Assembly (NCBI GenBank): GCA_002709695.1
Contig: PAQF01000031.1
Span: 9,172 to 48,712 of the forward strand
Direction: 5' to 3'
Source: Candidatus Poribacteria bacterium
Lineage (GTDB): Bacteria; Poribacteria; WGA-4E; UBA9662
Length of the DNA stretch: 39,541 bases
The notes under the pieces were generated by a model. That model was not told where the DNA came from. It saw only the letters and a list, made by a program, of their open reading frames with translations, and did no database searches. Positions 12,285 to 26,676 of the stretch are shown one piece after another. The position numbers and the translations under genes were made by a program. Numbering within the stretch: position 1 is the stretch's first letter; the number at the start of each line of letters is the position of its first letter.

Positions 12285-12449
12285 TACGACACGGAGTTTA
12301 AGTTGTAAGGAAACGCCAGAATAAATATAAAATCCGGTTTCGGGGTGATTCAAAAATTGGCAGTGTGAAGCAGGATGGACATGCAAGCGAATCCCGAAGT
12401 TAGTTCTACAGTCGTGGCGAATCAGAGACAGGTTAGTGATTAAAAAAAC

Positions 12450-13481
12450 ATGATCCTAATAACAGTAATTTTCTGTTTTCTTCTTGGTTGTGATAAGGAG
12501 GATCAACCAATTGACATAGATCGAGAGATCTACTGGCCAAAGGATGGCACCATCATGCGGCTGATTCCTGCTGGCACTTTTAAAATGGGTGATAATGATC
12601 TTTACCCCGAAGCCAAGGTAGAATTAGAAGGTCAAAGTGGCGACAATCCGCCACGTCCGGTGCACACCGTTGAACTTGATGCTTTCTATATGGACATTCA
12701 TGAAGTCACTGTAGAAAAATACAAGAGATTTGCCAATGAAACAGGACATATCTTTCGGATATCAGGCCAAGGCACCGAATTGTCTGAATTAGCTCCTACT
12801 GATCAGCATCCAGCCATTTATGTTTCTTGGTATGATGCTAAGGCTTACGCCAAATGGGCAGGTAAGCGGTTGCCTACTGAAGCCGAATGGGAATACGCTG
12901 CGCGCGGGGGGTTAGTTGGTAAGAGATACCCATGGGGACACGATCCACTAGATGGAACACAGGCCAACTTTGCCGATAAGAACGTACATCCTGTTTATGA
13001 GTATCTCGGTTATAACTTGGTATCTTTGTATAGTCAGGCCGTATTACGGAGAACTGACATAGCAGATGCTGAGAGGGAACTTCTCCTAAAACTGTTAAAC
13101 AGCCCTGACGGTATAGACGCCGTTTTACGGAATACTGATTTGTTCCGCGCAACTGGCAAAGATATTTTCCGTATTTTATACGTAGACGATGGCCATTCAA
13201 TCCTAGCCCCTGTAGCGAGTTATCCTTCCAATGGTTACGGGCTTTACGATATGGCTGGGAATGCTGCAGAATGGACTGCTGATTGGTATAGTCGTGGTTA
13301 TTATGCCCGTTCACCGAAAAAAAATCCGAAGGGCCCCAAAAACGGCACCTATAAGGTAATGCGGGGTGGAGGTTACCTTAGAAATGCAATTGAACAACAC
13401 GTAGCTCGGCGCGACATGCGCCGGCCGGAAACCGATTTTAGTTATGTCATTAGTTTTCGCTGCGTTGCAGATGTACCATAG
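12450..13481 (+). CDS. SUMF1-fold lipoprotein with an insertion
   Basis: The N-terminus is a short lipoprotein signal ending in LLGC (Cys14), though it lacks the usual positive n-region; an in-frame stop 9 bases upstream rules out a longer form. The rest is a formylglycine-generating-enzyme (SUMF1) fold: IPAGTFKMGD, TVEKYKRFA, VSWYDAKAYAKWAG, LPTEAEWEYAARGG, YGLYDMAGNAAEW and a C-terminal FRCVAD. The paired catalytic cysteines of true FGE are absent, so it is probably not a sulfatase activator but a binding or structural protein at the membrane surface. Compared with the paralogue at 25780, about 60 extra residues (roughly 178-251, helix-rich) are inserted before APVASYPSNGYG. Function unknown. 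Confidence 0.82.
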   Translation: MILITVIFCFLLGCDKEDQPIDIDREIYWPKDGTIMRLIPAGTFKMGDNDLYPEAKVELEGQSGDNPPRPVHTVELDAFYMDIHEVTVEKYKRFANETGHIFRISGQGTELSELAPTDQHPAIYVSWYDAKAYAKWAGKRLPTEAEWEYAARGGLVGKRYPWGHDPLDGTQANFADKNVHPVYEYLGYNLVSLYSQAVLRRTDIADAERELLLKLLNSPDGIDAVLRNTDLFRATGKDIFRILYVDDGHSILAPVASYPSNGYGLYDMAGNAAEWTADWYSRGYYARSPKKNPKGPKNGTYKVMRGGGYLRNAIEQHVARRDMRRPETDFSYVISFRCVADVP

Positions 13482-13543
13482 TAAATCTACTTCGAAGTTT
13501 GATGAATACTATTAGCTGAGCACCCTACAGGAGGTTACCAATC

Positions 13544-14794
13544 CTAGAAATTGTATTTCAATGAAATTTGAACATGAGAGAAACTTTCCAGATCGTTAAA
13601 TCGATCTTCAAGTTCGTTTTCATTGCCAAAAAACTGAGTAAAACCAAAGTTAACAGCGAGGTTCTTACCAAGCGAATAGTCCATTTTTCCATCCAGCATA
13701 AAACTATTCATCTCAAGATTATAAAACGTATAACTGCTTAGTTCCAAGGCGTTATCCATAAATGTTCGTGACAATAAAATTAGAAGTCCTCGGTCAGCAA
13801 TGATAGCGAAGGGCATACCCATCATTGTAGTTTTATTGACTTTTGCCCCATCCATTTTTAATGTTTGGCTTCCAAGAAACTGACTTGAGACAATTATCTC
13901 AAAAGGCACTGTAAACTCTGCTTGGAATGCGTATTGGCTGTATTCTGCTTCAGACTCCAATAGTATTGGTTGGGTGTAATCCCCACTTAAATCATTTCTT
14001 GTTTTAAAGTAAGCTATCTCACCACGAAAAGTTATGCCATGGTAGAAAGTGACTCCATCCAGCCCAAGCACCTGAGTCTTTCTGTAACCAAAGTAAGGAA
14101 TAACGGAAAAATCTTGGTCTAAATCATAGACGGCTAGCGAAAAAGTTCGATCTCTAGCTATCAAACCGCTAAGAGATAAATCACTGTTTTTTAGGTTGAC
14201 CTGCCACTTCCCTCCAAACTCAAATGGGTTTTCAACTTTCGCTACATGGTCTCTCGGATCCAAAAATTCTGTAAATTGTGAAAGGGGAAAATCAGGTTCG
14301 TCAAAAGGAATGCGATTACCAGTGTGCTGAGGAATAACAACTGCTTCAAAATTCCATCGATCGGAATAATATTTAAGATTAGCTGACAGCACACCAATTT
14401 TTCGCTGCGAACCGGGTTGGAAGATATAATAATAATCGTAAGGATTCAAATTGTCAGTTGGATTGTTCCCATCAACTTCACCCCAAGCATGAATCTGTTT
14501 GCCCAGCTTGAATTCTCCCCAACTCGGATACCAAGCTAAATAGGCTTCCCGAACGTCCACTTTTGTCTCATTACCGGCCCAGCGGTATTCCAAGGCTGTA
14601 TTTGTTATTATGTCTACATTCCCTTTGGAAAACCCTAGTTGATATTCTACCAGCCTGAATGGCAAAGATATTTCTTCCTGATCCAATATACCAATCAGTT
14701 TATAAAGTTGGAAGTGGCCAGAATGGTTTATTTGTCCGAATATTGGGTTAATAAACATTAACTGTGCCAACAAAAGCAGACGTAAATTTCTCAA
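13544..14794 (-). CDS. DUF1302-like outer-membrane beta-barrel protein
   Basis: The 416-residue protein starts with a signal peptide (about residues 1-20, ending near IFGQ) and is then made of alternating hydrophobic beta strands, ending in a terminal Phe (SLKYNF), the usual mark for Bam-mediated outer-membrane insertion. The segment FKLGKQIHAWGEVDGNNPTDNLNP resembles the conserved block of DUF1302 proteins (split here: GKQIHAWGEVDG and DNLNPYDYYY). DUF1302 barrels typically occur next to RND exporters and LolA-like or DUF1329 proteins, exactly as here. It is the last gene of a minus-strand series with the LolA-like gene 160 bases upstream. It probably forms the outer-membrane step of lipid export, which is inference. 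Confidence 0.78.
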   Translation of the reverse strand: MRNLRLLLLAQLMFINPIFGQINHSGHFQLYKLIGILDQEEISLPFRLVEYQLGFSKGNVDIITNTALEYRWAGNETKVDVREAYLAWYPSWGEFKLGKQIHAWGEVDGNNPTDNLNPYDYYYIFQPGSQRKIGVLSANLKYYSDRWNFEAVVIPQHTGNRIPFDEPDFPLSQFTEFLDPRDHVAKVENPFEFGGKWQVNLKNSDLSLSGLIARDRTFSLAVYDLDQDFSVIPYFGYRKTQVLGLDGVTFYHGITFRGEIAYFKTRNDLSGDYTQPILLESEAEYSQYAFQAEFTVPFEIIVSSQFLGSQTLKMDGAKVNKTTMMGMPFAIIADRGLLILLSRTFMDNALELSSYTFYNLEMNSFMLDGKMDYSLGKNLAVNFGFTQFFGNENELEDRFNDLESFSHVQISLKYNF

Positions 14795-14954
14795 AAATCA
14801 TGCTCCAATTGCAACGAATACCGTTTTAAACCGAGCGAGCTCTTTCTTAAAATTAGATACAATATGACTTATTTTGAAGATAATTATACTTTGCGCTCTG
14901 CACATGCAACCGTATGCTCTTTTCATTTCGATAAAAGATAGCATTATGAGGATT

Positions 14955-15692
14955 TCAATTTCTAGGTAGTCTCTTCAAATTCTTTTCGTGGAATAATTTT
15001 TCGTCAACACCCGTATCCACTTGGATGTGATTAAACTGAATGTTAGTAGTATGGTTTTTTTGTACATCTTTGACTGAGATTTGCTTAATTACATAATAGT
15101 TCTGTATCTTTTTAAAAACAAAAGATTTCACTTTTTTAAGCTTACCGTGTTTATCATAGGATTCCTCTTTGAATGGTACCAGACTTTCTTTGATTATCCA
15201 GTTCACATGATGTGAGTAGTCGGACTTAGCTTTAGGTTTAGGACTGATTTTCAAGACATAGCAATTATGATCATTAACAACTTCATCTTTGAGATATTTA
15301 TAATCGTTTTCGCTAAGGTTGCGGTTTGTGAGATCCTCGTAAGTTAGGTCAGAACCCATGAAGGAATTGCCTCTTTTTGTTGAGGCGATACGCCGGACCT
15401 TTTTAAAGGCTGGAAGCCACATCCGAATTTCACTTTCCTGATTATCATGCTCAATTTTTAAGAACGCTACACCTTTATCATCTTTTGGTTCCACAAACCA
15501 TATGATTTGCTTTTTGTTGTCATCAATAGATCTCAGTTTCATCACACTCGTTCGGGTTTTCCCTTTTGAATTCGCCAATACCATAATTGCTGTACTCGAG
15601 ATATCTTTAGGTTGTAGTCTCTCACCAACCCTCTCCGCGATTTCGAGTCCTGTTTGGGTAAAGAGCAACAATGATAGTATTAGTTCCGTCAT
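14955..15692 (-). CDS. LolA-like outer-membrane lipoprotein-sorting family protein
   Basis: The protein has a short hydrophobic N-terminus likely to be a signal peptide and a LolA-like beta fold. The family motif RMWLPAFKKVRRIAS followed by GNSFMGSDLTYEDL is clear (about residues 89-122). Proteins of this family bind hydrophobic molecules in the periplasm and are regularly encoded beside MMPL/RND exporters. Here the gene begins 16 bases after the RND gene stop, so the two are almost certainly co-transcribed. A periplasmic carrier role between the exporter and the outer-membrane barrel is inferred. It is not LolA itself: length and motif differ. Confidence 0.88.
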   Translation of the reverse strand: MTELILSLLLFTQTGLEIAERVGERLQPKDISSTAIMVLANSKGKTRTSVMKLRSIDDNKKQIIWFVEPKDDKGVAFLKIEHDNQESEIRMWLPAFKKVRRIASTKRGNSFMGSDLTYEDLTNRNLSENDYKYLKDEVVNDHNCYVLKISPKPKAKSDYSHHVNWIIKESLVPFKEESYDKHGKLKKVKSFVFKKIQNYYVIKQISVKDVQKNHTTNIQFNHIQVDTGVDEKLFHEKNLKRLPRN

Positions 15693-15708
15693 TATGAATT
15701 TCCTTCAA

Positions 15709-18108
15709 CTAGTTTGTTGTTAATCTTTTTTTCATTAGTTCAGCAACAATCGCTAATATTGTCAATGTCGCCACGGACGTAGAAACCATCGCAAATATAA
15801 GTAATCCACCAATGTATTGAATAGGAACAAAGACCGAAAATAACAAGGCTCCAAACCCCATATTTGACACAGCATCTAGGATTATAGGATAACCCACATC
15901 TTCAACGACTTCACGTGTTAGGGTATCAAGCGAAACAACGCTTTTTGCAGTATTTCGATACTGCGAGATATAGTGAAGGGAAAAATCGACACCAACACCA
16001 ATAATGATAGCAGAGAGAATCGCAGTAATATGGGAAAGGTCAACACCAAATAGCCCCATCATTCCAAAATTCAAGATAACAGCAGAAACAAGGGGTGTAA
16101 CAGAAAGCAGTGCCCACAGGACTTTTTTGAAAAAGACCCAAGAAATCAAAAATATCATGAAAATTGAAACCGCTATACTAGTAAATGCCGACCTTATGAC
16201 CGAGTAAACCAATTCGCGCATAATGACCAGAATTCCCGTGATATTTGTCTGGATGTCATCATTCGTGATGGACTGGATCATCTCTTCTGTATCTCGAACA
16301 AACTCGATAATCACAGTTGTAGTAATATGGCCCATGAGCGCTGTAATCAGACCTGTCTGATACTCATAATCAATCAACGAACTAAAATCGTCTAAGGTCC
16401 CAGACATAGAGTAAAGAGTAAACAAGTTACTCACTTTTTCCTTCGATTCCGGAATGATTTCGAATTTAGGGTCATCATCCATGATTGTTCGATGCATTTG
16501 CTTGATAATGTCTACAATGGATAATGTTGAACAGACATGAGAATGTGAATCAACAAACTCTTGGATTACTTGCATTTGGTTCAAGCTCTCAGGAGATTTC
16601 AGATTTCCTTCGACTCTGATATCGATGTCCATAACTCCGGTCATTTCCTGATTCATAAAATCGACGCTATCACGAATCTCGGATCCCGGTTTGTAGAATT
16701 TGGTAAAATCAACTTCCACTTCTATAAATAGAATACCAACTGCTGCGATAAGGACTACACCTACGCTAAATACTAGAATCACCTTTTGAAAACGAACAAC
16801 GTTTCTTCCATACATACTTACTATTTTTTCGATGAAACTCAAATGTGTGATTGCCTTAGACTTCAGATCCCATTTGTGATGGATGATTACGGCAGGAAGA
16901 AATAATGACGACAACAGCCATGCCCAAGCAATACCGAGTGAAACGGTAATACCATAACCTGTGAACTGTTCAATAGGAGCAAATACCAAAGACAGGAAAG
17001 CTGCGATAGTGGTTAGACTCGTCAAAAATACTGGCAACAAAAGCCTGTCCATAGTTACACGTATGGCTTTCTCAACATGCTTTTGTTTCCGTAATTCTCG
17101 AAAGAATTTCGTTAGAATGTGAACTCCATCTGCGGCAGCAATTGTCATCAAAATGATTGGCATAGTGGAGTTAACCATAGTGAAATGGAATTTCTCCGAA
17201 CCGGTCAAAGTAACAACCCAACCCATGAAGCCCATCATCGACACCAAGGCAATGATGATTACCCCCCAAACCAGCGTAACCGCGGCAACGCTACGGAAGT
17301 TCAAAGCCAGAATAGCAATTAATATTCCTATGCCGAATCCCATCAAAATTAGAACATCTTCTAGAATGAGCGTAGGGAGAGTTCCAAAAAGATAAGGCAC
17401 ACCACCATAATGGATTTCGTACTTACTGAGAAATTCGCCCGAAATCTCCACCATTTTGTCCCGCAAGATACTATTGTCTATGCCTATTTTAGGCTTTATC
17501 ATAATGTTCACATAATCATTGTGACGACTCACTATCCGTTTTTTAATGCGGGGATATTTGTTGAGATATCGCTCAACTTCCTCCACCTCATCCATAGTCA
17601 TATTCCTAGAAGGCTGAAGATCGCTGATTTCGAGAAAGCCTCCATCATTAGTCATCTGGCGCATTGTTGATATGGATAGAACTTCGTCTACTTCCTTAAC
17701 TTCTTCTAGCGCATGGCTTACATCCCATAGGCATGCCAACGACTCTCCATTAAAAATTGATTTTCTTCTATTTCCAAATGCGATAAAAGCCATATCTGTG
17801 CGGCCAAACTCACGTCTCACATTTTCCCAAGTAATTCGTTCTTCAGTAGTTTGAGGGAGCAGTTTCATCATATCTTCGTCAACAATGAAATGGGGCAGTT
17901 GAGTTGCGAAATGGTCGTAGGCTGAGGTAAAGATCTGGGCGGATTTTTCCTCCGAAAGCAACCATGTTCCCAAACCTTTAAAGGCGAAGAGAATGTTACC
18001 ACTCAGGCCCATGGCCAAGATCAGGGACAAAAACACAACTACCTGGATGGTTCGTTTGGAATTATCCAGGCTCTGGTGTGTAAACCATGCCTTGATGGAA
18101 TCCTTCAT
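15709..18108 (-). CDS. RND/MMPL-family lipid exporter
   Basis: The 799-residue inner-membrane protein has a TM helix at about residues 20-42, a large periplasmic domain, a bundle of TM helices, then a repeat of this layout, as in HAE3-type RND transporters (MmpL and hopanoid exporter HpnN relatives). Charged residues within the TM regions include Asp in IAAADGVHIL and Asp in IGVGVDFSLHY, the two equivalent family motifs that mediate proton coupling. Family members export lipids and other hydrophobic compounds. No periplasmic adaptor (MFP) gene is present; instead the LolA-like and DUF1302-like genes follow. The upstream neighbours on the same strand are a sulfotransferase and a type III PKS, so a sulfated lipid is a candidate cargo. 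Confidence 0.9.
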   Translation of the reverse strand: MKDSIKAWFTHQSLDNSKRTIQVVVFLSLILAMGLSGNILFAFKGLGTWLLSEEKSAQIFTSAYDHFATQLPHFIVDEDMMKLLPQTTEERITWENVRREFGRTDMAFIAFGNRRKSIFNGESLACLWDVSHALEEVKEVDEVLSISTMRQMTNDGGFLEISDLQPSRNMTMDEVEEVERYLNKYPRIKKRIVSRHNDYVNIMIKPKIGIDNSILRDKMVEISGEFLSKYEIHYGGVPYLFGTLPTLILEDVLILMGFGIGILIAILALNFRSVAAVTLVWGVIIIALVSMMGFMGWVVTLTGSEKFHFTMVNSTMPIILMTIAAADGVHILTKFFRELRKQKHVEKAIRVTMDRLLLPVFLTSLTTIAAFLSLVFAPIEQFTGYGITVSLGIAWAWLLSSLFLPAVIIHHKWDLKSKAITHLSFIEKIVSMYGRNVVRFQKVILVFSVGVVLIAAVGILFIEVEVDFTKFYKPGSEIRDSVDFMNQEMTGVMDIDIRVEGNLKSPESLNQMQVIQEFVDSHSHVCSTLSIVDIIKQMHRTIMDDDPKFEIIPESKEKVSNLFTLYSMSGTLDDFSSLIDYEYQTGLITALMGHITTTVIIEFVRDTEEMIQSITNDDIQTNITGILVIMRELVYSVIRSAFTSIAVSIFMIFLISWVFFKKVLWALLSVTPLVSAVILNFGMMGLFGVDLSHITAILSAIIIGVGVDFSLHYISQYRNTAKSVVSLDTLTREVVEDVGYPIILDAVSNMGFGALLFSVFVPIQYIGGLLIFAMVSTSVATLTILAIVAELMKKRLTTN

Positions 18109-18572
18109 ATTGCCTCAATTTTCTCGGCTAATTCTATGACTGAAAACAACTTAGTTCTTCTCCTCTTAATTTTGGAGGACACGATAGACTTTCAGCCTAC
18201 TCAGAAGAAAAGGCCCATAAAGATCCTGAGAGACAGCTAAGTTTGGACCATCATAATGTTTCTGGTTGTACTAAGATCTGGTTTTCAGTCAGGTCGGTTG
18301 GCCACTTTAAGACAAAGCCAGTACTTAAGATGAGTGAGAGATAACTACTAGTTCGTTGTTAATCTGCAATCTTCCATTTTGGCAGGTTACGTCTGTTTAT
18401 GATGAGTTCCACTCTGGCTACATGTTCTTTCAGTAAAACAATGTGGTTGTATGAGAGAATCCTCATTCAGCCAAATAAAATTCCGCCGTAGAAAAGAACT
18501 AGAGCTAACCAAGTTTTAAACTTCTCAACTTGGATTTCCGAATTTTAAGAACAAACAGCACAATCGTTTTTT
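18109..18572. other. Gap between sulfotransferase and exporter genes
   Basis: These 464 bases lie between two minus-strand genes. No ORF with coding character was seen on either strand, and no clear terminator hairpin. The gap could hold a separate promoter for the exporter genes, so whether the five minus-strand genes form one transcript cannot be told from the sequence. Confidence 0.5.
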
Positions 18573-19601
18573 TTAAAACCGTGAATAAATGAAATCAAAA
18601 TCCTGCAAGATTTGTTTTTTGCTTAAACTGAAATCTTCCAGAAAATATTTGTGCTCGGTTTTAAAGGAAGATTGTTTATTATCTTGCATATCAATAGCAT
18701 GTAATATATCGGGATGTCTTTCAAGTTCACAATAATCCATAATACGGAGCATTGTGCATTTAAAATCGTTTTTCAGTTCGTTGTATGTTACCAATTGAAG
18801 TTTGCCCTTGAACTTCTCATTAGAAAAAAGAGCATCCAAATGTTTGTAGTAGAATAGCGACATAGCATATAAATTCTCAAAGAAGCGAGCCTTTGTATTT
18901 TCATCTTGTCTATCAAAATCGTAGAGATTAGACTGGACACTTTTTTCGAGCGACATTAATGAAGGTATCGCTTCTAGTGGATCGCGTAACAGGACAACAA
19001 TCTTTGCTACAGGGAAAACCTCTAATATTGTTTCAATATTAAAAATACCGAAGAATGATTTTGATACCATTCTTTTGGAACATTGATACATGTTATTTTC
19101 ATGAATTTTGCGCAGGTAGTGGATAAATTTCTCTTTTTCGGCAGCATTGCGTATGCTCTGTTCTAAATCGGTAGTCGATGGGTATTTTTGCCACGAGCCG
19201 AAATATACCCATGATAGGATGCCCTCGGCATATCTGAAATGAATCGCGATATCGTCTGTTTCGGGCAAGAAAAAGTTGGTTTCGTGGATTCTTGGATCAT
19301 AAACTTTGTCAAGTGACATTCTTTTCAGTAATGGGACTAATGGTTTCAACAATTTGCGAGTAGTGATGGCGGGCAAAAGCATATCAATGAGCATCATTCC
19401 TTTTAGATCCATAAAATTATCACACATAAAACGATGCAGAAAAGTGGTGCCACTACGCAGATGACCAATGATAAAAATTGGTTTTTCGATTTTACCCTTG
19501 TTGTAGAAGAAAATTTTGTCCAAAAAAAAGGTCAAGAAGATTGTCCCTAAAACAAAAAACCTGACAATTTTCAAAAGAACAAGCTTTATCAATTTACTCA
19601 T
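18573..19601 (-). CDS. PAPS-dependent sulfotransferase family protein
   Basis: The enzyme should transfer a sulfuryl group from PAPS to a hydroxyl group of an unknown acceptor. The 5'-phosphosulfate loop is GHLRSGTT (residues 46-53) and the 3'-phosphate site is VVLLRDPLEAIPSLMS (about 202-217), both intact. A hydrophobic segment at about residues 8-32 suggests membrane association, and the acceptor may therefore be a lipid. The fold resembles the Sulfotransfer_3 group. It begins 54 bases after the end of the type III PKS gene on the same strand, so the pair is likely co-transcribed and the PKS product is the obvious candidate acceptor. The start is ATG. Confidence 0.88.
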   Translation of the reverse strand: MSKLIKLVLLKIVRFFVLGTIFLTFFLDKIFFYNKGKIEKPIFIIGHLRSGTTFLHRFMCDNFMDLKGMMLIDMLLPAITTRKLLKPLVPLLKRMSLDKVYDPRIHETNFFLPETDDIAIHFRYAEGILSWVYFGSWQKYPSTTDLEQSIRNAAEKEKFIHYLRKIHENNMYQCSKRMVSKSFFGIFNIETILEVFPVAKIVVLLRDPLEAIPSLMSLEKSVQSNLYDFDRQDENTKARFFENLYAMSLFYYKHLDALFSNEKFKGKLQLVTYNELKNDFKCTMLRIMDYCELERHPDILHAIDMQDNKQSSFKTEHKYFLEDFSLSKKQILQDFDFIYSRF

Positions 19602-19655
19602 CTAAAAATTGAAGTTTCATTTCTATGGTTTCAATATTAAATTTTCATCTTAACT

Positions 19656-20720
19656 TTAAAATTGCCATCGGTAAAGAAATGTTGCCAAATAATAGCCAGC
19701 TCCAAAACTAGCGATTATTCCGTAAGAATCTCTAGTTTTTTCTTCCTTTAAAAAAGATTCTAGAACAACAAAAGCACTGGGGGCACTTAAATTCCCATAT
19801 TCATAAAACATTTGCCTCGATCTCTCGATCTTTTCAGCGCTAATGTTCAAATTCCTTTTGTCAGCGAATGATTCTAGGATAGGTAATCCGCCTTGATGAA
19901 GACTCCATTCTTGAATCTGATCAATGGATAAATTTTCCCTTTTTAAAATTGGTTGTATCAATTTGGTTGAGACAATGTTGGGCAATGTGCTTTTAATGTT
20001 ATCGTCCAGAACCAAATATCCTTCTCGCATGTCAACAGCTGTACCCAATTGAAATTGGGTTGAATAATCAATTATCTCTAATAGCGGTTGATCAAATTCA
20101 CACTTCATGTTTTCCGGGATAACTAACAAACCAACACCAGCATCTGAAAAAAGCAGCGAAGTTATTAAATTGGCCTTAAAATCTCGATGTGTTTTGTCAA
20201 AGATGGGATTAGCTATCCAAGAACATTGATCGAAGGTGTAAACATAGGCGGCTTTCTGGCTTTCTTGGCAGTATTCAACAGCTGATTTAAGCGAAAACAA
20301 CCCACCAGCGCATCCATAATAGGAAATTTCCTCAGGTATTGCATCCAACTCAAGATTAGCATCCAAAGACAGCTGACAAGCCAAGTTTGGCAAAACATCA
20401 GTGTGCGAAGAAATATTGTAGGAAACACTTACAAACCCAATTTTTTTCGGATCAATTTTCTCTGATAAATTACTCAGAATTTGTTTTCCCCAATGTAAAG
20501 GATGGTATTCTTGAGTTGATAACTTTTTCTTGGGTAGAGAATTAGCATCAAGCACCGAATACCGTTGTTTAAAACCAAGGGATTTGGCTACCCTTTTAGC
20601 ATACAAGTTCAATTTTTCACCGGCCTCAGTAGCAGGGTAGAGTGCATCTACTGCTATATCGGGATGGTATCCTTTGGGGAAGATACTTTTGATGCTAGCG
20701 ATATATACTCGATTATTCAT
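19656..20720 (-). CDS. Type III polyketide synthase-like condensing enzyme
   Basis: A thiolase-fold condensing enzyme. Counting from ATG 20720 (354 residues), the catalytic triad is Cys137 in YYGCAGG, His275 in WSLHQGGLPILE and Asn310 in EYGNLSAPS. Spacings of 138 and 35 are close to plant chalcone synthase (139 and 33) and longer than FabH (132 and 30). LHQGGLPIL resembles the HPGG-x-x-IL of type III PKSs, and SFGAGYY takes the place of their GFGPG loop. Such enzymes make alkylresorcinols, pyrones or phloroglucinols from acyl-CoA and malonyl-CoA. A TTG at 20774 would add 18 residues without a ribosome binding site, so I prefer the ATG. A FabH-like or OleA-like enzyme remains possible. Confidence 0.75.
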   Translation of the reverse strand: MNNRVYIASIKSIFPKGYHPDIAVDALYPATEAGEKLNLYAKRVAKSLGFKQRYSVLDANSLPKKKLSTQEYHPLHWGKQILSNLSEKIDPKKIGFVSVSYNISSHTDVLPNLACQLSLDANLELDAIPEEISYYGCAGGLFSLKSAVEYCQESQKAAYVYTFDQCSWIANPIFDKTHRDFKANLITSLLFSDAGVGLLVIPENMKCEFDQPLLEIIDYSTQFQLGTAVDMREGYLVLDDNIKSTLPNIVSTKLIQPILKRENLSIDQIQEWSLHQGGLPILESFADKRNLNISAEKIERSRQMFYEYGNLSAPSAFVVLESFLKEEKTRDSYGIIASFGAGYYLATFLYRWQF

Positions 20721-21655
20721 AGTGCGTAATCCGAACCGAAATTGCTCGAAGAAAGAAAGCAGTCCCGTCAACAACCGGTAGTTTTGAACAGAGTTGATCA
20801 GCTTTCGTTCAAATCTTTAGACTAGCTGACCTAACACTCAGTGTTTATTTAGAATATAAGCCCAATGCATGCCAGAGCTCAAACCCAAGATCCAGCTCTA
20901 CACATAACTAGTATAGATAATTTAACGAAAAATGGCAAGATGGCAATAAAGTCATCCAATGTCCGGAACGTCCTATGGTAACCGTATAGTTTGTGTGTCG
21001 TGATGGAGTTAGTATATAGAAAAACAGTGTGTCCTCAATCATGCCCGAAGTAACAAAGCTAAAAATCAGATACCAACACAAAATTGCATTTAAAGATACT
21101 TGGCGGAAGGACTTCTCCTTACTAGGACTATCGTATAGTAATTATTGCACATGCAAATTATATTCGGCTATTTAGAAAAGCGTAGGGATAAAATTACTAA
21201 TCAATACATCTTTATTTATGTATCCGATACTATTTATTCTAAATCACTGCCATTCAGCGGTCTCTTTACCTTGGTATGTTGATCGTGCTAGAATATCCTC
21301 CTAAATCTTTAGCAGAACTAAAATGGTGAATCCAGTTGGGATCGCAGATTATGCCGAGCAGGATTTTGCATCTTGATGTTTCAAAACGATTGCGTTTATC
21401 TGGTAAAGTACATTTTCCTGACAGAAATTAAGAATGGAAACTTTAAAAACTGCCAAATATACTGCAATTTAACCGCGAAAATATTCAAAGAAATTCATGA
21501 TTCTCGTGTGATATTGAGAAACCTAGAAAACTTTTTAAGGTATCGTAGACGTGTATAAACTACAGATAGAATTTTGGGGATAGTGACCTCAGTCATCTTG
21601 GTAACACAAAAACAACATACAGTCAGCAAAAACATGTTTTGTAAAGGAGACAAAA
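20721..21655. other. Long divergent intergenic region
   Basis: About 930 bases separate the minus-strand PKS gene and the plus-strand FG-GAP gene. The sequence is AT-rich and stop-dense. A 61-codon plus-strand frame at 21373-21558 has no ribosome binding site and no recognisable similarity, so I do not call it. No tRNA, repeat array or mobile element end was found. It should hold promoters for both flanking genes. Confidence 0.5.
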
Positions 21656-22741
21656 ATGCCACTTAAATTTAAGAAATCACTTATATCTGAAGAAACTTAT
21701 GAAACAGCGGCTGCGTTTGACGTTGACGGCGACGGTATACTGGATATTGTATCCGGTGGGTGGTGGTACAAAGGACCAGATTTCGTAGAGCGCTACAAGG
21801 TCTGCGAAGTGAGAAGTGAAGGTGAATATTACGATGATTTTTCCACGATTCCTATGGATATAAATGGCAATGGTAAAATGGACTTTGTGACCGGCGGATG
21901 GTTTGGATGCAACCTCCGTTGGCACGAAAACCCTGATAACCTGAACAAAGAGTGGTCAGGACACATCATCGCTGAATGTGGCAATGTGGAAACCACCCGC
22001 GCGTGGGATGTTGACGGTGACGGTCAGCTTGAGATTGTTCCCAATACTCCACCGACACCTTTGGTCGTCTACAAACTAATACAAGATGAGAGAGGCAAAG
22101 GCACTGGTAAGTTTACCGCCCATAAAATCTATGATGAGCGTCAAGGACATGGACTTGGCTTTGGCGATATAACGGGCAATGGTCGTGGTGATTTTATCTT
22201 GCAAAACGGCTGGCTTGAAGCTCCAGAAGATACCTATGACGGAAAATGGACTTTCCATCCTGATTTTGACCTTGGTAGCGCCAGTGTACCTATATTGGTG
22301 GTAGACGTGAACGGCGACGGTTTAAATGATCTAATTGTTGGACAAGCACACCCCTATGGACTAGATTGGTGGGAGCAACGTGTGAGTGAAAGCGGTGAAA
22401 GAACTTGGATTAAGCATCCTATTGATCCTTACAATTCCCAGTATCATGATATTCAATGGGTGGATATTGACGGCGACGGCGAATGCGAACTGGTTACAGG
22501 CAAACGCTACAGGGCACATTGTGGTGGTGATCCGGGGGCAGATGATGATATAGGACTTTATTATTTCAAATGGAACGGAGAGTCCTTCGCTAAACAGGTG
22601 ATTGACTACGGTCCAGCAGGTGTTGCCTCTGGGTGCGGCATTTTCTTTCATGTTATTGATCTTAACGGAAATGGGATGCTTGATATTGTCGCTCCCGGCA
22701 AAGAGGGGCTTTTTGTTTTTGAAAATCTTGGACAGAGCTGA
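21656..22741 (+). CDS. FG-GAP/VCBS seven-repeat beta-propeller protein
   Basis: The 361-residue protein consists of seven similar units, each with a calcium-loop-like motif: DVDGDGILDIV (22-32), DINGNGKMDFV, DVDGDGQLEIV, DITGNGRGDFI, DVNGDGLNDLI, DIDGDGECELV and DLNGNGMLDIV. Seven units fit a complete seven-bladed propeller of the FG-GAP/integrin-alpha type. There is no signal peptide and no other domain, which is unusual because such proteins usually act outside the cell. The start ATG has AAAGGAG a few bases upstream. In related marine bacteria these proteins occur near sugar-use genes; a ligand-binding or rhamnogalacturonan-lyase-like role cannot be decided here. Confidence 0.85.
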   Translation: MPLKFKKSLISEETYETAAAFDVDGDGILDIVSGGWWYKGPDFVERYKVCEVRSEGEYYDDFSTIPMDINGNGKMDFVTGGWFGCNLRWHENPDNLNKEWSGHIIAECGNVETTRAWDVDGDGQLEIVPNTPPTPLVVYKLIQDERGKGTGKFTAHKIYDERQGHGLGFGDITGNGRGDFILQNGWLEAPEDTYDGKWTFHPDFDLGSASVPILVVDVNGDGLNDLIVGQAHPYGLDWWEQRVSESGERTWIKHPIDPYNSQYHDIQWVDIDGDGECELVTGKRYRAHCGGDPGADDDIGLYYFKWNGESFAKQVIDYGPAGVASGCGIFFHVIDLNGNGMLDIVAPGKEGLFVFENLGQS

Positions 22742-22995
22742 GTTGTGCGGAAAGTCGGAAGACCTCTTAACCACACTGAGGGAACCTGCATATGATTGGC
22801 TTCAAGTGGCTGGAGGTTGACGGCAGTTTGAGCCTGTATTTTCAAAATGAATCCTAGGATAAATATCTCCCAAAACAGAACATATTCCTATGAATAGGAC
22901 AGGGTCGAGATCCTGATAAAACCCATTCTAGCTACATAAGAGCTAGGTCTTACCAAAGCACCTAAAAAAACATCAATAAGTATTTCGCTGATATC

Positions 22996-25383
22996 ATGAT
23001 GATCCGGTTCTTGAGGTTGCTTTTTCTCCTTGTTGGAATATGGATCCTTATTCTGACCATTCCACTCAGTAGTCCGTCAAGCCTTACCAACATTATCACA
23101 TCTGGAGGCATTAATCATCAAGTTACTATAAATACCCCTATACTCAATTCGTCTCTCATAGTTTCTGGGACACAGATGTTCTTTTGTATGCTACTTTTCT
23201 CCATCTGCTTGGTGTGTGTGTCTCCTTCGGGGCGAAGGAACTTTTTTGGAATTATCCATTCACCAAAGAGATCTATCAGTATCCTACTGCCACTCACCAT
23301 ATTCATTTTTGCGTTATATCCTACCCAAAACGGCTTACCCATAGTCTTATACCTAACACTATCCACATTGGGGCTACTATCTATATTGTTTGGGGCATAC
23401 CCCGTTATTTCTTACCTGCGTAGATGGTTACCGGAGAAACATTTTAGTATTGTTATTTACGCCTTTATTAATATCCGTTCTGCATACTTCCTCACACTAA
23501 TATTTGCCATAACATTCACATTAACTAACCTCTGCTCTTACTTCATTTTTGAGCATGTGCCACATGTTCAGGACAACATCGATCAACTTTTCCATGCTAA
23601 GATTTTTCTCTCGGGACACCTGACCGTACCATCCCATGAGCACAAGGAATTTTTCGACTTTACGCACAATATTAACAATGGAAAATGGTATTCCGAATAT
23701 CCGCCAGGGCACACACTTATGTTGATGTTGGGGTTAATCCTGAACGCACCATGGATAATAAATCCATTTTTGGGGTCGGTTTCTGTCGTACTTTTTTATT
23801 TGATCGGCAAATCGCTTTTCGACGAAACAACCGGCAGATTGGCTTCGCTATTGGGAGGATTTTCGCCATTTGTTATCATCATGTCGTCGGGTTTTTTCTC
23901 TCATAATACATCATTGTTTTTTACTGCTCTGTTCGCTCTTTTTTTCTTTAGAACCATTAGAACAAGTAAGTTTAGTGATTCGTTGATCGCCGGTTTATCG
24001 CTGGGGATTTGCTTAAATGCCCGAATTTTGACTGCTATTGGTATAGGTCTTCCCTATGCTTTCTACGCAGTTTACCTGATGCTGACAAAGACAAGAGTCT
24101 ACATACTTTGCTTTATGGTTATGCTTGCAGGTTTCCTTATGATGGTTGGTGTTCTGGCCAGTTTTAATTATCTTACCAACGGACATCCAATGCTTACTGG
24201 TTATGAGGTACTGTGGGGTAGCGACCACAATCCAGGATTCGGACACAGCGCATGGGGAGAACCTCATACGCCAAAGAGAGGTTTAATCCAAAACCTGAAT
24301 AACCTCAATGCCCTGAATAAGTACCTCTTCGAATGGTGTATTCCAAGTACATTTTTCGTTATGCTGTTCTTTGCAGGTGGTCGACGCACCCAGTGGGATT
24401 ACTTACTGATTGCTTCAGTATTTTCCTTGTCATTTGTCTATTTCTTTTATTGGTATCAAGGTTGGTGTTTTGGTCCTAGGTTTATGTATGAATCAACTTG
24501 CCCATTGATTCTGCTGACCGCCAGAGGAATCATTCATACACCTGATATTATTAAAAAGAAGTTTCAACCCAAGCTATCCGAAGGCGATCTACGCTACTTC
24601 TTATCGTTGATCATTGGCTTTTGTGTATGTGTTGCCCTTTACGTCAATGTTCCTACGTTGATCAAATTGTATTCAGATGATTACTGGGGTGTTAATACCA
24701 AAGTTCAAAAAGCAGTTGAGAGAGAGAAGATTAGTAATGCGGTGGTCTTTGTCAATTCATACTACGGCTCTGTGTTAGCATTAAACTCGCCCCAACTGGA
24801 CAGCAAAATTATATACGTTCGCGATCTGGGAGTCAAAAACAAACTGATGATGGATTTCTACCCCGAAAGAAAGTATTATCTTGCTTCAGGTAGTAACATC
24901 CAGAAAATATTCAGTTTTTACTATGACGGCACGGGTGAACCAGCAGTAACAAATGGCGATTTTGAGATGGGAACACTTGATGGTTGGCAGATTGATGGCC
25001 ATGCATGGGGAATAACTGGTCGAGATCGAGAGGGACGAATAGGGAATTTCCATGCTGAATCGCTAGTAGGAGGTGAGGAAACGACTGGAATTATGAAATC
25101 AGACATGTTCACTGTTACTGGGGAGGCGATTGGGATTTCTATAAATGGGTGGGACCGTGATCCTCTCAGACCAAATCAGTGTCTCCTAAAAGATTTTCTG
25201 ACCAACGAAATCCTAAGGACAGCATCACCGCCAAATCAGGATGCGTTTGTAACTAAGTTCTGGGATGTTTCTGACTTGGTTGGACGTAAAGTTTACCTTA
25301 CAATTGTTGATAATGATGATGATACATTGAAAAAAGGAGGGTTTGCTTGGATAGGCCTGAGTGCTATATACCAGCTCGAGTAG
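22996..25383 (+). CDS. GT39/ArnT-like membrane glycosyltransferase with C-terminal sugar-binding-like domain
   Basis: The first 570 or so residues hold about a dozen hydrophobic segments, the pattern of GT-C transferases that use polyprenyl-phosphate sugars (dolichyl-phosphate-mannose mannosyltransferase and ArnT relatives). Acidic residues after the early TM region, in HVPHVQDNIDQLFHAKIF, fit the catalytic loop of this class, and YPPGH also resembles family members. From about residue 650 the protein becomes soluble and resembles a beta-sandwich of CBM66 or galactose-binding type: NGDFEMGTLDGW, GFAWIGLSAIY. The domain would sit on the periplasmic side. Likely role is glycosylation of a lipid or protein at the membrane. 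Acceptor and donor are unknown. Confidence 0.75.
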   Translation: MMIRFLRLLFLLVGIWILILTIPLSSPSSLTNIITSGGINHQVTINTPILNSSLIVSGTQMFFCMLLFSICLVCVSPSGRRNFFGIIHSPKRSISILLPLTIFIFALYPTQNGLPIVLYLTLSTLGLLSILFGAYPVISYLRRWLPEKHFSIVIYAFINIRSAYFLTLIFAITFTLTNLCSYFIFEHVPHVQDNIDQLFHAKIFLSGHLTVPSHEHKEFFDFTHNINNGKWYSEYPPGHTLMLMLGLILNAPWIINPFLGSVSVVLFYLIGKSLFDETTGRLASLLGGFSPFVIIMSSGFFSHNTSLFFTALFALFFFRTIRTSKFSDSLIAGLSLGICLNARILTAIGIGLPYAFYAVYLMLTKTRVYILCFMVMLAGFLMMVGVLASFNYLTNGHPMLTGYEVLWGSDHNPGFGHSAWGEPHTPKRGLIQNLNNLNALNKYLFEWCIPSTFFVMLFFAGGRRTQWDYLLIASVFSLSFVYFFYWYQGWCFGPRFMYESTCPLILLTARGIIHTPDIIKKKFQPKLSEGDLRYFLSLIIGFCVCVALYVNVPTLIKLYSDDYWGVNTKVQKAVEREKISNAVVFVNSYYGSVLALNSPQLDSKIIYVRDLGVKNKLMMDFYPERKYYLASGSNIQKIFSFYYDGTGEPAVTNGDFEMGTLDGWQIDGHAWGITGRDREGRIGNFHAESLVGGEETTGIMKSDMFTVTGEAIGISINGWDRDPLRPNQCLLKDFLTNEILRTASPPNQDAFVTKFWDVSDLVGRKVYLTIVDNDDDTLKKGGFAWIGLSAIYQLE

Positions 25384-25779
25384 AACAAAAAAAATCCGAT
25401 CTTTTCTATTTGTCAGGCCAACGTTATCTAATCAATCCAACATGCTAACCCCCTTGAAGAAGCACTATAGCACGGTTAAACTCAGTGGAGAAAAAATTGA
25501 GTTCCACTCAGAACACTATATCTAAGCCTGCTTCGAAACGCGAAATGCTGAAGTCTTGTTGTGCGGTTAACGCTTGGGAATGGCAAGGAGCATCGTGTTT
25601 CCACTTTTTGTCTAATGGTAAATTTGAGTTACTTAGAAGAAAAGCCACACATTTCTTCATTGGTTCCAGTACTGTTTAATAAAAGCCAAGAAGTACTTCA
25701 AACTCGAAAATTATTCTGTTGACTAATTCAAGTTAGAGCCTAAAATTCAATCTAAGAAAAATTACAAGAGGTAAGTGAC
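25384..25779. other. Intergenic region
   Basis: A 64-codon frame at 25485-25679 has no ribosome binding site, no conserved motif and a composition unlike its neighbours, so I treat it as chance. No hairpin terminator was seen after the glycosyltransferase gene, although an A8 run follows the stop. The last 15 bases carry AGAGGTAAG, the ribosome binding site of the lipoprotein gene. Confidence 0.5.
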
Positions 25780-26676
25780 ATGCTCAAAAATGTCATCGTT
25801 TGGATATTAATGGGACTATTTTTTATTGGATGCAGTGATGATGAAGAACCTGATGAAATAAAATTTTCAATACAAGAAATAATTTGGCCGAAGGATGGAT
25901 CAAGAATGATACTTTTGCCAGCCAACGATTTTGAGATGGGATATTCTAATAACAAATCTGATATCTTAATGGAGCATTCTCTTCCCATTCATACGGTTGA
26001 ACTCGAAGCTTTTTATATTGATGTGCATGAAGTCACAGTTGGACAATTCAAAAGGTTCATTAATGATTTCAATTATATTCCATCTATAGTTGACAACCAT
26101 TGGAAATCATTAGAAAAGTACTGGATAGAGGTTTCTGCAATATCACCAACGGATCTTCACCCGATAGTTTACGTTAGTTGGCATGATGCTATGGCTTATG
26201 CTCTATGGATAGACAAGAGGCTTCCTACAGAAGCGGAATGGGAGTATGCCGCTCGCGGAGGTTTGACAAACAACCTTTATCCATGGGGCTCTGAGATCAC
26301 TCACGATAATGCCAACTACTTAGGAACAGGAGGACGTGATCAATGGGATAAGGAAACTGCACCAGTTGGCAGTTTCGAACCGAACGGCTATGGCATTTAT
26401 GATGTCGCAGGCAATGTTTGGGAATGGTGCTTGGATGAGTGGGAGCAAGATTTCTATACCAGGAGTCCGATCTCAAACCCAGTGGCAGGTCATACTAACA
26501 CTAATGAAATAATAAACAATTATAAAGACATAAGATCAAATCGCGTACTTCGTGGCGGGGCTTGGATTAGTCCTGAAGAGAACCTTCGTGTTGCCAATCG
26601 ATACGTCGCTTACGATTCTCCCGAAAACATGAGTGGGTACGATGGGTTTCGTTGCGCTGCAGACATCGAGCAATAA
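25780..26676 (+). CDS. SUMF1-fold lipoprotein
   Basis: The signal peptide has one Lys then a hydrophobic core ending in the lipobox FIGC (Cys18), followed by an acidic linker. The mature part is a SUMF1/FGE-sulfatase-modifying fold: LLPANDFEMGY, EVTVGQFKRF, VSWHDAMAYALW, RLPTEAEWEYAARGG, YGIYDVAGNVWEW and GFRCAADIEQ at the end. The catalytic cysteine pair of active formylglycine-generating enzymes is missing, so a sulfatase-activating role is unlikely. It is a shorter paralogue of the lipoprotein at 12450, and both share an acidic region plus IIWPKDGS/IYWPKDGT just before the domain. No sulfatase gene is present in the window. Role unknown; surface binding is a guess. Confidence 0.85.
   Translation: MLKNVIVWILMGLFFIGCSDDEEPDEIKFSIQEIIWPKDGSRMILLPANDFEMGYSNNKSDILMEHSLPIHTVELEAFYIDVHEVTVGQFKRFINDFNYIPSIVDNHWKSLEKYWIEVSAISPTDLHPIVYVSWHDAMAYALWIDKRLPTEAEWEYAARGGLTNNLYPWGSEITHDNANYLGTGGRDQWDKETAPVGSFEPNGYGIYDVAGNVWEWCLDEWEQDFYTRSPISNPVAGHTNTNEIINNYKDIRSNRVLRGGAWISPEENLRVANRYVAYDSPENMSGYDGFRCAADIEQ

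Follow-up and report, generated by a model that had tools for sequence, protein, structure and literature searches.

A deeply divergent type III polyketide synthase-like enzyme, a sulfotransferase and an RND-LolA-barrel gene set in Poribacteria: a possible sulfated polyketide lipid locus

Do five adjoining genes of a Candidatus Poribacteria bacterium encode a pathway that makes a polyketide lipid, sulfates it and exports it? The genes lie in a 5.2-Mb draft genome (assembly GCA_002709695.1), on a 39,541-nucleotide stretch of contig PAQF01000031.1 that we analysed as a whole and call the window. Read 5' to 3' on the minus strand, they encode a type III polyketide synthase (PKS)-like enzyme, a sulfotransferase dependent on 3'-phosphoadenosine 5'-phosphosulfate (PAPS), an RND transporter, a LolA-like periplasmic protein and a putative outer-membrane beta-barrel. 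All five reading frames are open and stand in the order given by a preliminary description of the locus (Table 1). Computation assigns the enzyme and protein classes, and from these we infer product, sulfation target and cargo. Our answer is a tentative yes, held with confidence somewhat short of even: the locus may make a sulfated polyketide lipid and send it outward. The preliminary description had proposed the same; its PKS class and the PKS-sulfotransferase unit hold up, whereas export of their product by the neighbouring trio is the weaker part.

The PKS-like protein truly belongs to the type III fold but is deeply divergent within it; it is not a FabH, and it is no ordinary type III PKS either. 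Its catalytic triad, Cys137/His275/Asn310 when numbered from the ATG and as previously described, lies in the contexts GCAGG, HQGG and EYGNLSAPS, which fit the GCxGG, HxGG and YGNxS patterns of type III PKSs, and a stretch inserted near the active-site gate is absent from FabH. A profile built from type III PKS relatives matches the protein over its full length at 133 bits, against 24 bits in two separate pieces for a profile of the phylum's FabH; the Pfam matches to Chal_sti_synt_C (9.7e-10) and ACP_syn_III_C (2.9e-8) are both weak and almost equal. An AlphaFold model (pLDDT 84, pTM 0.88) had only type III PKSs among its top 50 Foldseek matches in the PDB, led by CylI (resorcinol) and mycobacterial enzymes including Pks11 and Pks18. 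Motifs, profile scores and fold together rule out a FabH identity, and the clustering with FabH-type enzymes that the preliminary description had named as a sign against its assignment did not appear.

In a phylogenetic tree the protein falls outside the other type III PKSs and apart from FabH, on a branch of ~5 changes per column. As long branches may meet (a treekit warning), its exact position is unsafe, and we take from the tree only that the sequence is deep and isolated. Among the matches listed in a scan of named genomes, no relative elsewhere exceeds ~30% identity across most of its length; no closer relative or donor was found in other phyla, that of locus L060 included. Viral contigs held no relative, and relatives on plasmids reached only ~22-24% identity. 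A TTG-initiated version of the gene would extend to 20774; the sister species' sequence is conserved from the ATG at 20720 onward, so the ATG is probably the true start and the longer reading unlikely. A genome from another family of the same order (G019, L005:16-1795) encodes an ordinary, different type III PKS, whose gene comes immediately behind one for a UbiA-type prenyltransferase; the two may belong to a pathway for a prenylated resorcinol.

The sulfotransferase scores 70.4 bits against Sulfotransfer_3, for which the cut-off is 27. Both PAPS motifs previously ascribed to it are present, a 5' loop (IIGHLRSGTTFLH, with the motif RSGTT) and a 3' PAPS-like motif (VAKIVVLLRDPLEAIPSL, with the pattern VVLLRDP..S), and both are kept in both species. 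The N-terminal 30 residues are hydrophobic, as described, but are broken by K11 and R14; a membrane-associated helix is more probable than a clean transmembrane segment, and would be consistent with the enzyme lying at the membrane near a lipid substrate. No fold claim rests on the single-sequence AlphaFold2 model of this protein (pLDDT 43). Use of PAPS requires adenylylsulfate (APS) kinase, and the presence of one in the genome (contig C63, 3.2e-71) fits a cellular supply. This kinase is on another contig, and the scanned neighbours include no dedicated PAPS cassette.

That the PKS and sulfotransferase genes form one unit is supported by their spacing (54 bp here, exactly as described earlier, and 49 bp in the sister genome, G001), by their retention in both of the genus's genomes, by the rarity of the two families in the genome and by described pairs (PMC12135136, PMC13141999). 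Genome-wide counts are one for type III PKS, two each for Sulfotransfer_3 and MMPL proteins, and four for LolA_like matches, three of which exceed the cut-off. By a rough estimate that assumes ~4500 genes, the probability of chance adjacency of the PKS and sulfotransferase is of the order of 1e-3, and finding members of all four families together by chance is unlikely.

The whole set recurs in G001, the second of the genus's two genomes, where the five genes stand in identical order with 78-87% identity (87% for the sulfotransferase). An orthologue of the PKS (84-85% identical) occurred only there among 59 genomes searched, our own included. The ratio of nonsynonymous to synonymous substitution rates between the two species is 0.20-0.27 across the five genes (0.20 for the sulfotransferase), indicating that all of them are kept by purifying selection. 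The second copy of the locus also rules out an assembly chimera. Within the phylum (85 genomes), the RND transporter and barrel likewise have strong orthologues in these two genomes alone, and we count this shared restriction of PKS, sulfotransferase, RND transporter and barrel to one genus in favour of a common pathway.

Among the exporter genes, the RND and LolA-like assignments of the preliminary description stand (Table 1), whereas the barrel, which it had called DUF1302-like, scores below the cut-off for that family (20.6 against 23.2 bits; 16.3 for the G001 barrel); a homologue in G068 passes at 39.8 bits. No solved structure bore a meaningful resemblance to the barrel. The best RND subfamily for the transporter is HAE3 (TIGR00921, 9.3e-47), yet its 159 bits lie below the curated cut-off of 351.9, and by NCBI's rule it does not count as a member; Asp327 and Asp708 fall within two MMPL-type membrane motifs, and 11 hydrophobic segments were found against 12 expected. 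The LolA-like protein matches LolA_like (PF17131) at 177 bits (cut-off 30) and DUF1329 at 9.7e-10, and its relatives in the PDB are 9tp6, 3bk5 and 4z48; no lipobox cysteine was seen in it. In G064 the RND and LolA-like proteins are fused in one 1085-aa frame (L143:6044-9298), beside which lies a weak barrel match; the fusion supports the two acting together in transport. Genome G059 has RND and LolA genes on a short contig.

In the proposed pathway the PKS would extend an acyl-CoA starter, probably fatty, with malonyl-CoA and cyclise the chain to a phenolic or pyrone lipid. A lipid product is plausible by analogy, because the nearest solved relatives take fatty-acyl starters. The membrane-associated sulfotransferase would transfer sulfate from PAPS to a hydroxyl of its putative acceptor. 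The predicted amphiphilic cargo would then be taken out of the inner membrane by the RND transporter, cross the periplasm on the LolA-like protein, and be inserted or released at the outer membrane by the barrel.

Several observations weigh against this pathway, and some of them suit its main rival, in which two independent modules happen to adjoin: a PKS and sulfotransferase making a sulfated polyketide, and a cassette of HAE3 RND, LolA-like and DUF1302-like proteins that, like AmeABCD, removes other hydrophobic compounds. We regard this explanation as possible, if on balance doubtful. The sulfotransferase and RND genes are separated by a gap of 464 bp that the preliminary description did not mention; in G001 it is 1275 bp, 811 bp longer, and a conserved block lies directly upstream of the RND gene. 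The gap with its conserved ends suggests that the exporter genes may have their own promoter. Moreover, related exporter sets occur elsewhere in the class: RND, LolA-like and barrel genes stand in a row in at least two other genomes, G060 (behind a TetR-family gene) and G068, and neither genome has a PKS or sulfotransferase match; the fused gene and weak barrel of G064 may be counted with them. The trio is thus an old, portable cassette, and an exporter set without the first two genes, which the preliminary description had said would speak against its reading, does exist for distant homologues. AmeABCD itself acts in monoterpene tolerance (PMC6394551). Two findings speak against separate modules: within the phylum, neither half has strong orthologues outside this genus, and the sister species retains the exporter genes beside the PKS-sulfotransferase pair. 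The block shared with G001 in a DNA comparison runs from 12444 to 25441 (~13 kb), further than had been noted earlier, and also holds unrelated genes: an FGE-sulfatase-domain gene on the barrel side, FG-GAP and PMT_2-like genes on the PKS side. With only two close species and unrelated genes in the block, the shared order is supportive, not decisive, and weak proof of shared function.

The narrow distribution of the pair itself is a further limit on the case. PKS orthologues occur in 2 of 85 genomes of the phylum and sulfotransferase orthologues in 2 of 83 genomes of the class, in each case both genomes of this genus. Telling against the proposed pathway, the 80 type III PKS loci that matched best in other bacteria, viewed with up to 10 kb on either side, yielded no recognisable sulfotransferase by similarity or PAPS motif (0/80), and in 20 of those genomes no relative of the sulfotransferase was found at all. 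The single PAPS-motif match among these loci, a 139-aa reading frame in L085, has no similarity to the window's sulfotransferase and was rejected. In the data searched the pairing thus appears specific to this genus, though analogous pairs are described elsewhere, and the conservation search that the preliminary description had suggested, for the pair beside the trio, returned G001 and nothing else among the genomes searched. No acyl-activating or tailoring genes adjoin the PKS. Its active-site loop, which reads SFGAG where GFGPG is expected, makes the chemistry uncertain, and owing to this loop we prefer the label type III PKS-like and leave the predicted activity open.

This loop belongs to the case for a neofunctionalised condensing enzyme, whose product would be a beta-keto acid, a ketone or an acyl transfer product and no cyclised polyketide, with the sulfotransferase acting on another hydroxylated lipid. 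The further departures from type III motifs (HQGG for HPGG, FSDAG for FGDGA), the very long branch, the low identity to the relatives listed and the near-equal weak Pfam scores to type III and FabH C-terminal domains favour such an enzyme; the full-length type III profile match, the GCxGG motif, the gate insertion and the type III fold argue against it, and we consider it improbable. FGAG for FGPG is also found in a deep type III homologue group of Omnitrophota, Verrucomicrobiota and Kiritimatiellota (L065, L121, L102) and an unclassified bacterium (L088), indicating that the loop is variable in deep branches and no bar to type III membership. More remote still is a sulfate relay. According to PMC4924298, the type III PKS of the caprazamycin (cpz) system produces pyrones that relay sulfate, and here a sulfated alkylpyrone would likewise be a carrier from which a PAPS-independent transferase hands sulfate to another acceptor. 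The scanned neighbours include no recognisable second transferase that would work independently of PAPS, and we judge this relay very improbable.

The statement in the preliminary description that no described system has this exact gene set agrees with the literature we found, but for each half there are precedents that it leaves unmentioned: adp, cpz and pks18-Rv1373 for the first, AmeABCD for the second. In the adp cluster of Streptomyces davaonensis (sulfatostatins), a type III PKS gene is followed by one for a PAPS-dependent sulfotransferase, as here, and this enzyme, AdpST, sulfates the alkylresorcinols of the PKS to give a sulfated alkylresorcinol (PMC12135136). Our locus shares the adjacent PKS and sulfotransferase genes of adp-type clusters, at 54 bp here and 49 bp in the sister species. 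By description, adp has a dedicated PAPS cassette in a five-gene operon without an exporter, whereas here no PAPS genes adjoin and an RND-LolA-barrel set does. In Mycobacterium tuberculosis, Rv1371-Rv1372(Pks18)-Rv1373 form one operon in which a PKS of lipid pyrones adjoins a (glyco)lipid sulfotransferase (PMC13141999). Pks18 is among our best fold matches; however, identity is ~20%, and the mycobacterial operon has a predicted desaturase in a cluster without a transporter (PMC8086630). RND transporters are also encoded in some type III PKS clusters of cyanobacteria (PMC8086630).

The trio most resembles exporters of other contexts. AmeABCD of Castellaniella defragrans likewise combines an HAE3-family RND protein, a LolA-superfamily (DUF1329) periplasmic protein and a DUF1302 outer-membrane protein (PMC6394551), but it has four parts, lies in a monoterpene degradation island without PKS or sulfotransferase, and the barrel here is only weakly DUF1302-like. 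ApeL/ApeM/ApeN, for aryl polyene export, pairs a LolA-like chaperone with an RND transporter in a Gram-negative polyketide-like lipid cluster (PMC8253772). There, a LolB-like ApeN replaces the barrel, and the biosynthesis is different and without a sulfotransferase. In mycobacteria, RND/MmpL proteins transport the polyketide lipids sulfolipid-1 (SL-1; MmpL8), which is sulfated, and phthiocerol dimycocerosate (PDIM; MmpL7 with LppX). Their export differs in type I PKS chemistry, in the trehalose core of SL-1 and in the mycobacterial envelope; MmpL7/LppX also features in PMC11539658.

Pairing of a PKS with a sulfotransferase is thus already known in actinobacteria, and the new part, only moderately supported, is its link to this exporter. 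A bolder proposal is a Gram-negative pathway of a kind not described before. In it, the lipid made by a new and deep-branching type III PKS class would receive its sulfate in the cytoplasm, a dedicated RND-LolA-barrel route would deliver it to the outer membrane, and the cell would gain a sulfated surface lipid that is comparable with mycobacterial sulfolipid yet arose independently; we think this unlikely as a whole. If the main reading is right, the locus would be a compact five-gene test case for polyketide lipid movement to the Gram-negative outer membrane, would offer a possible cargo for the poorly understood RND-LolA-DUF1302 type exporters and would add a sulfated surface lipid to the lineage. 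We know of no such lipid in this lineage. A further outcome is a type III PKS branch for which, among the matches listed for species-level genomes, no relative exceeds ~30% identity across most of its length.

Table 1. The five genes and the intervening gap, in window coordinates
Feature	Position	Strand	Evidence
Type III PKS-like enzyme, 354 aa from ATG	19656..20720	-	Pfam, motif, profile and fold evidence
PAPS-dependent sulfotransferase (Sulfotransfer_3), 342 aa, N-terminal hydrophobic helix	18573..19601	-	Pfam 3.3e-19; orthologue in G001
Sulfotransferase-RND gap, 464 bp	18109..18572	-	DNA comparison with G001; short conserved blocks at both ends
RND transporter, HAE3/MMPL type, 799 aa	15709..18108	-	MMPL 1.2e-13
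LolA-like periplasmic protein, 245 aa	14955..15692	-	LolA_like 3e-52
Putative outer-membrane beta-barrel, weakly DUF1302-like, 416 aa, C-terminal Phe	13544..14794	-	DUF1302 20.6 bits

Within the trio the spacing is 16 bp between the RND and LolA-like genes and 160 bp between the LolA-like and barrel genes. Rfam and tRNA scans gave no match, promoter-like and terminator-like counts were not above those of shuffled sequences, and PADLOC returned no match for the PKS or sulfotransferase. Upstream of the PKS, positions 20775-21655 form an 881-bp region without a long open reading frame or an Rfam match, part of which is conserved in the sister species (67-74%). Two plus-strand genes with an FGE-sulfatase domain, a domain common in other roles, flank the region at 12450-13481 and 25780-26676.
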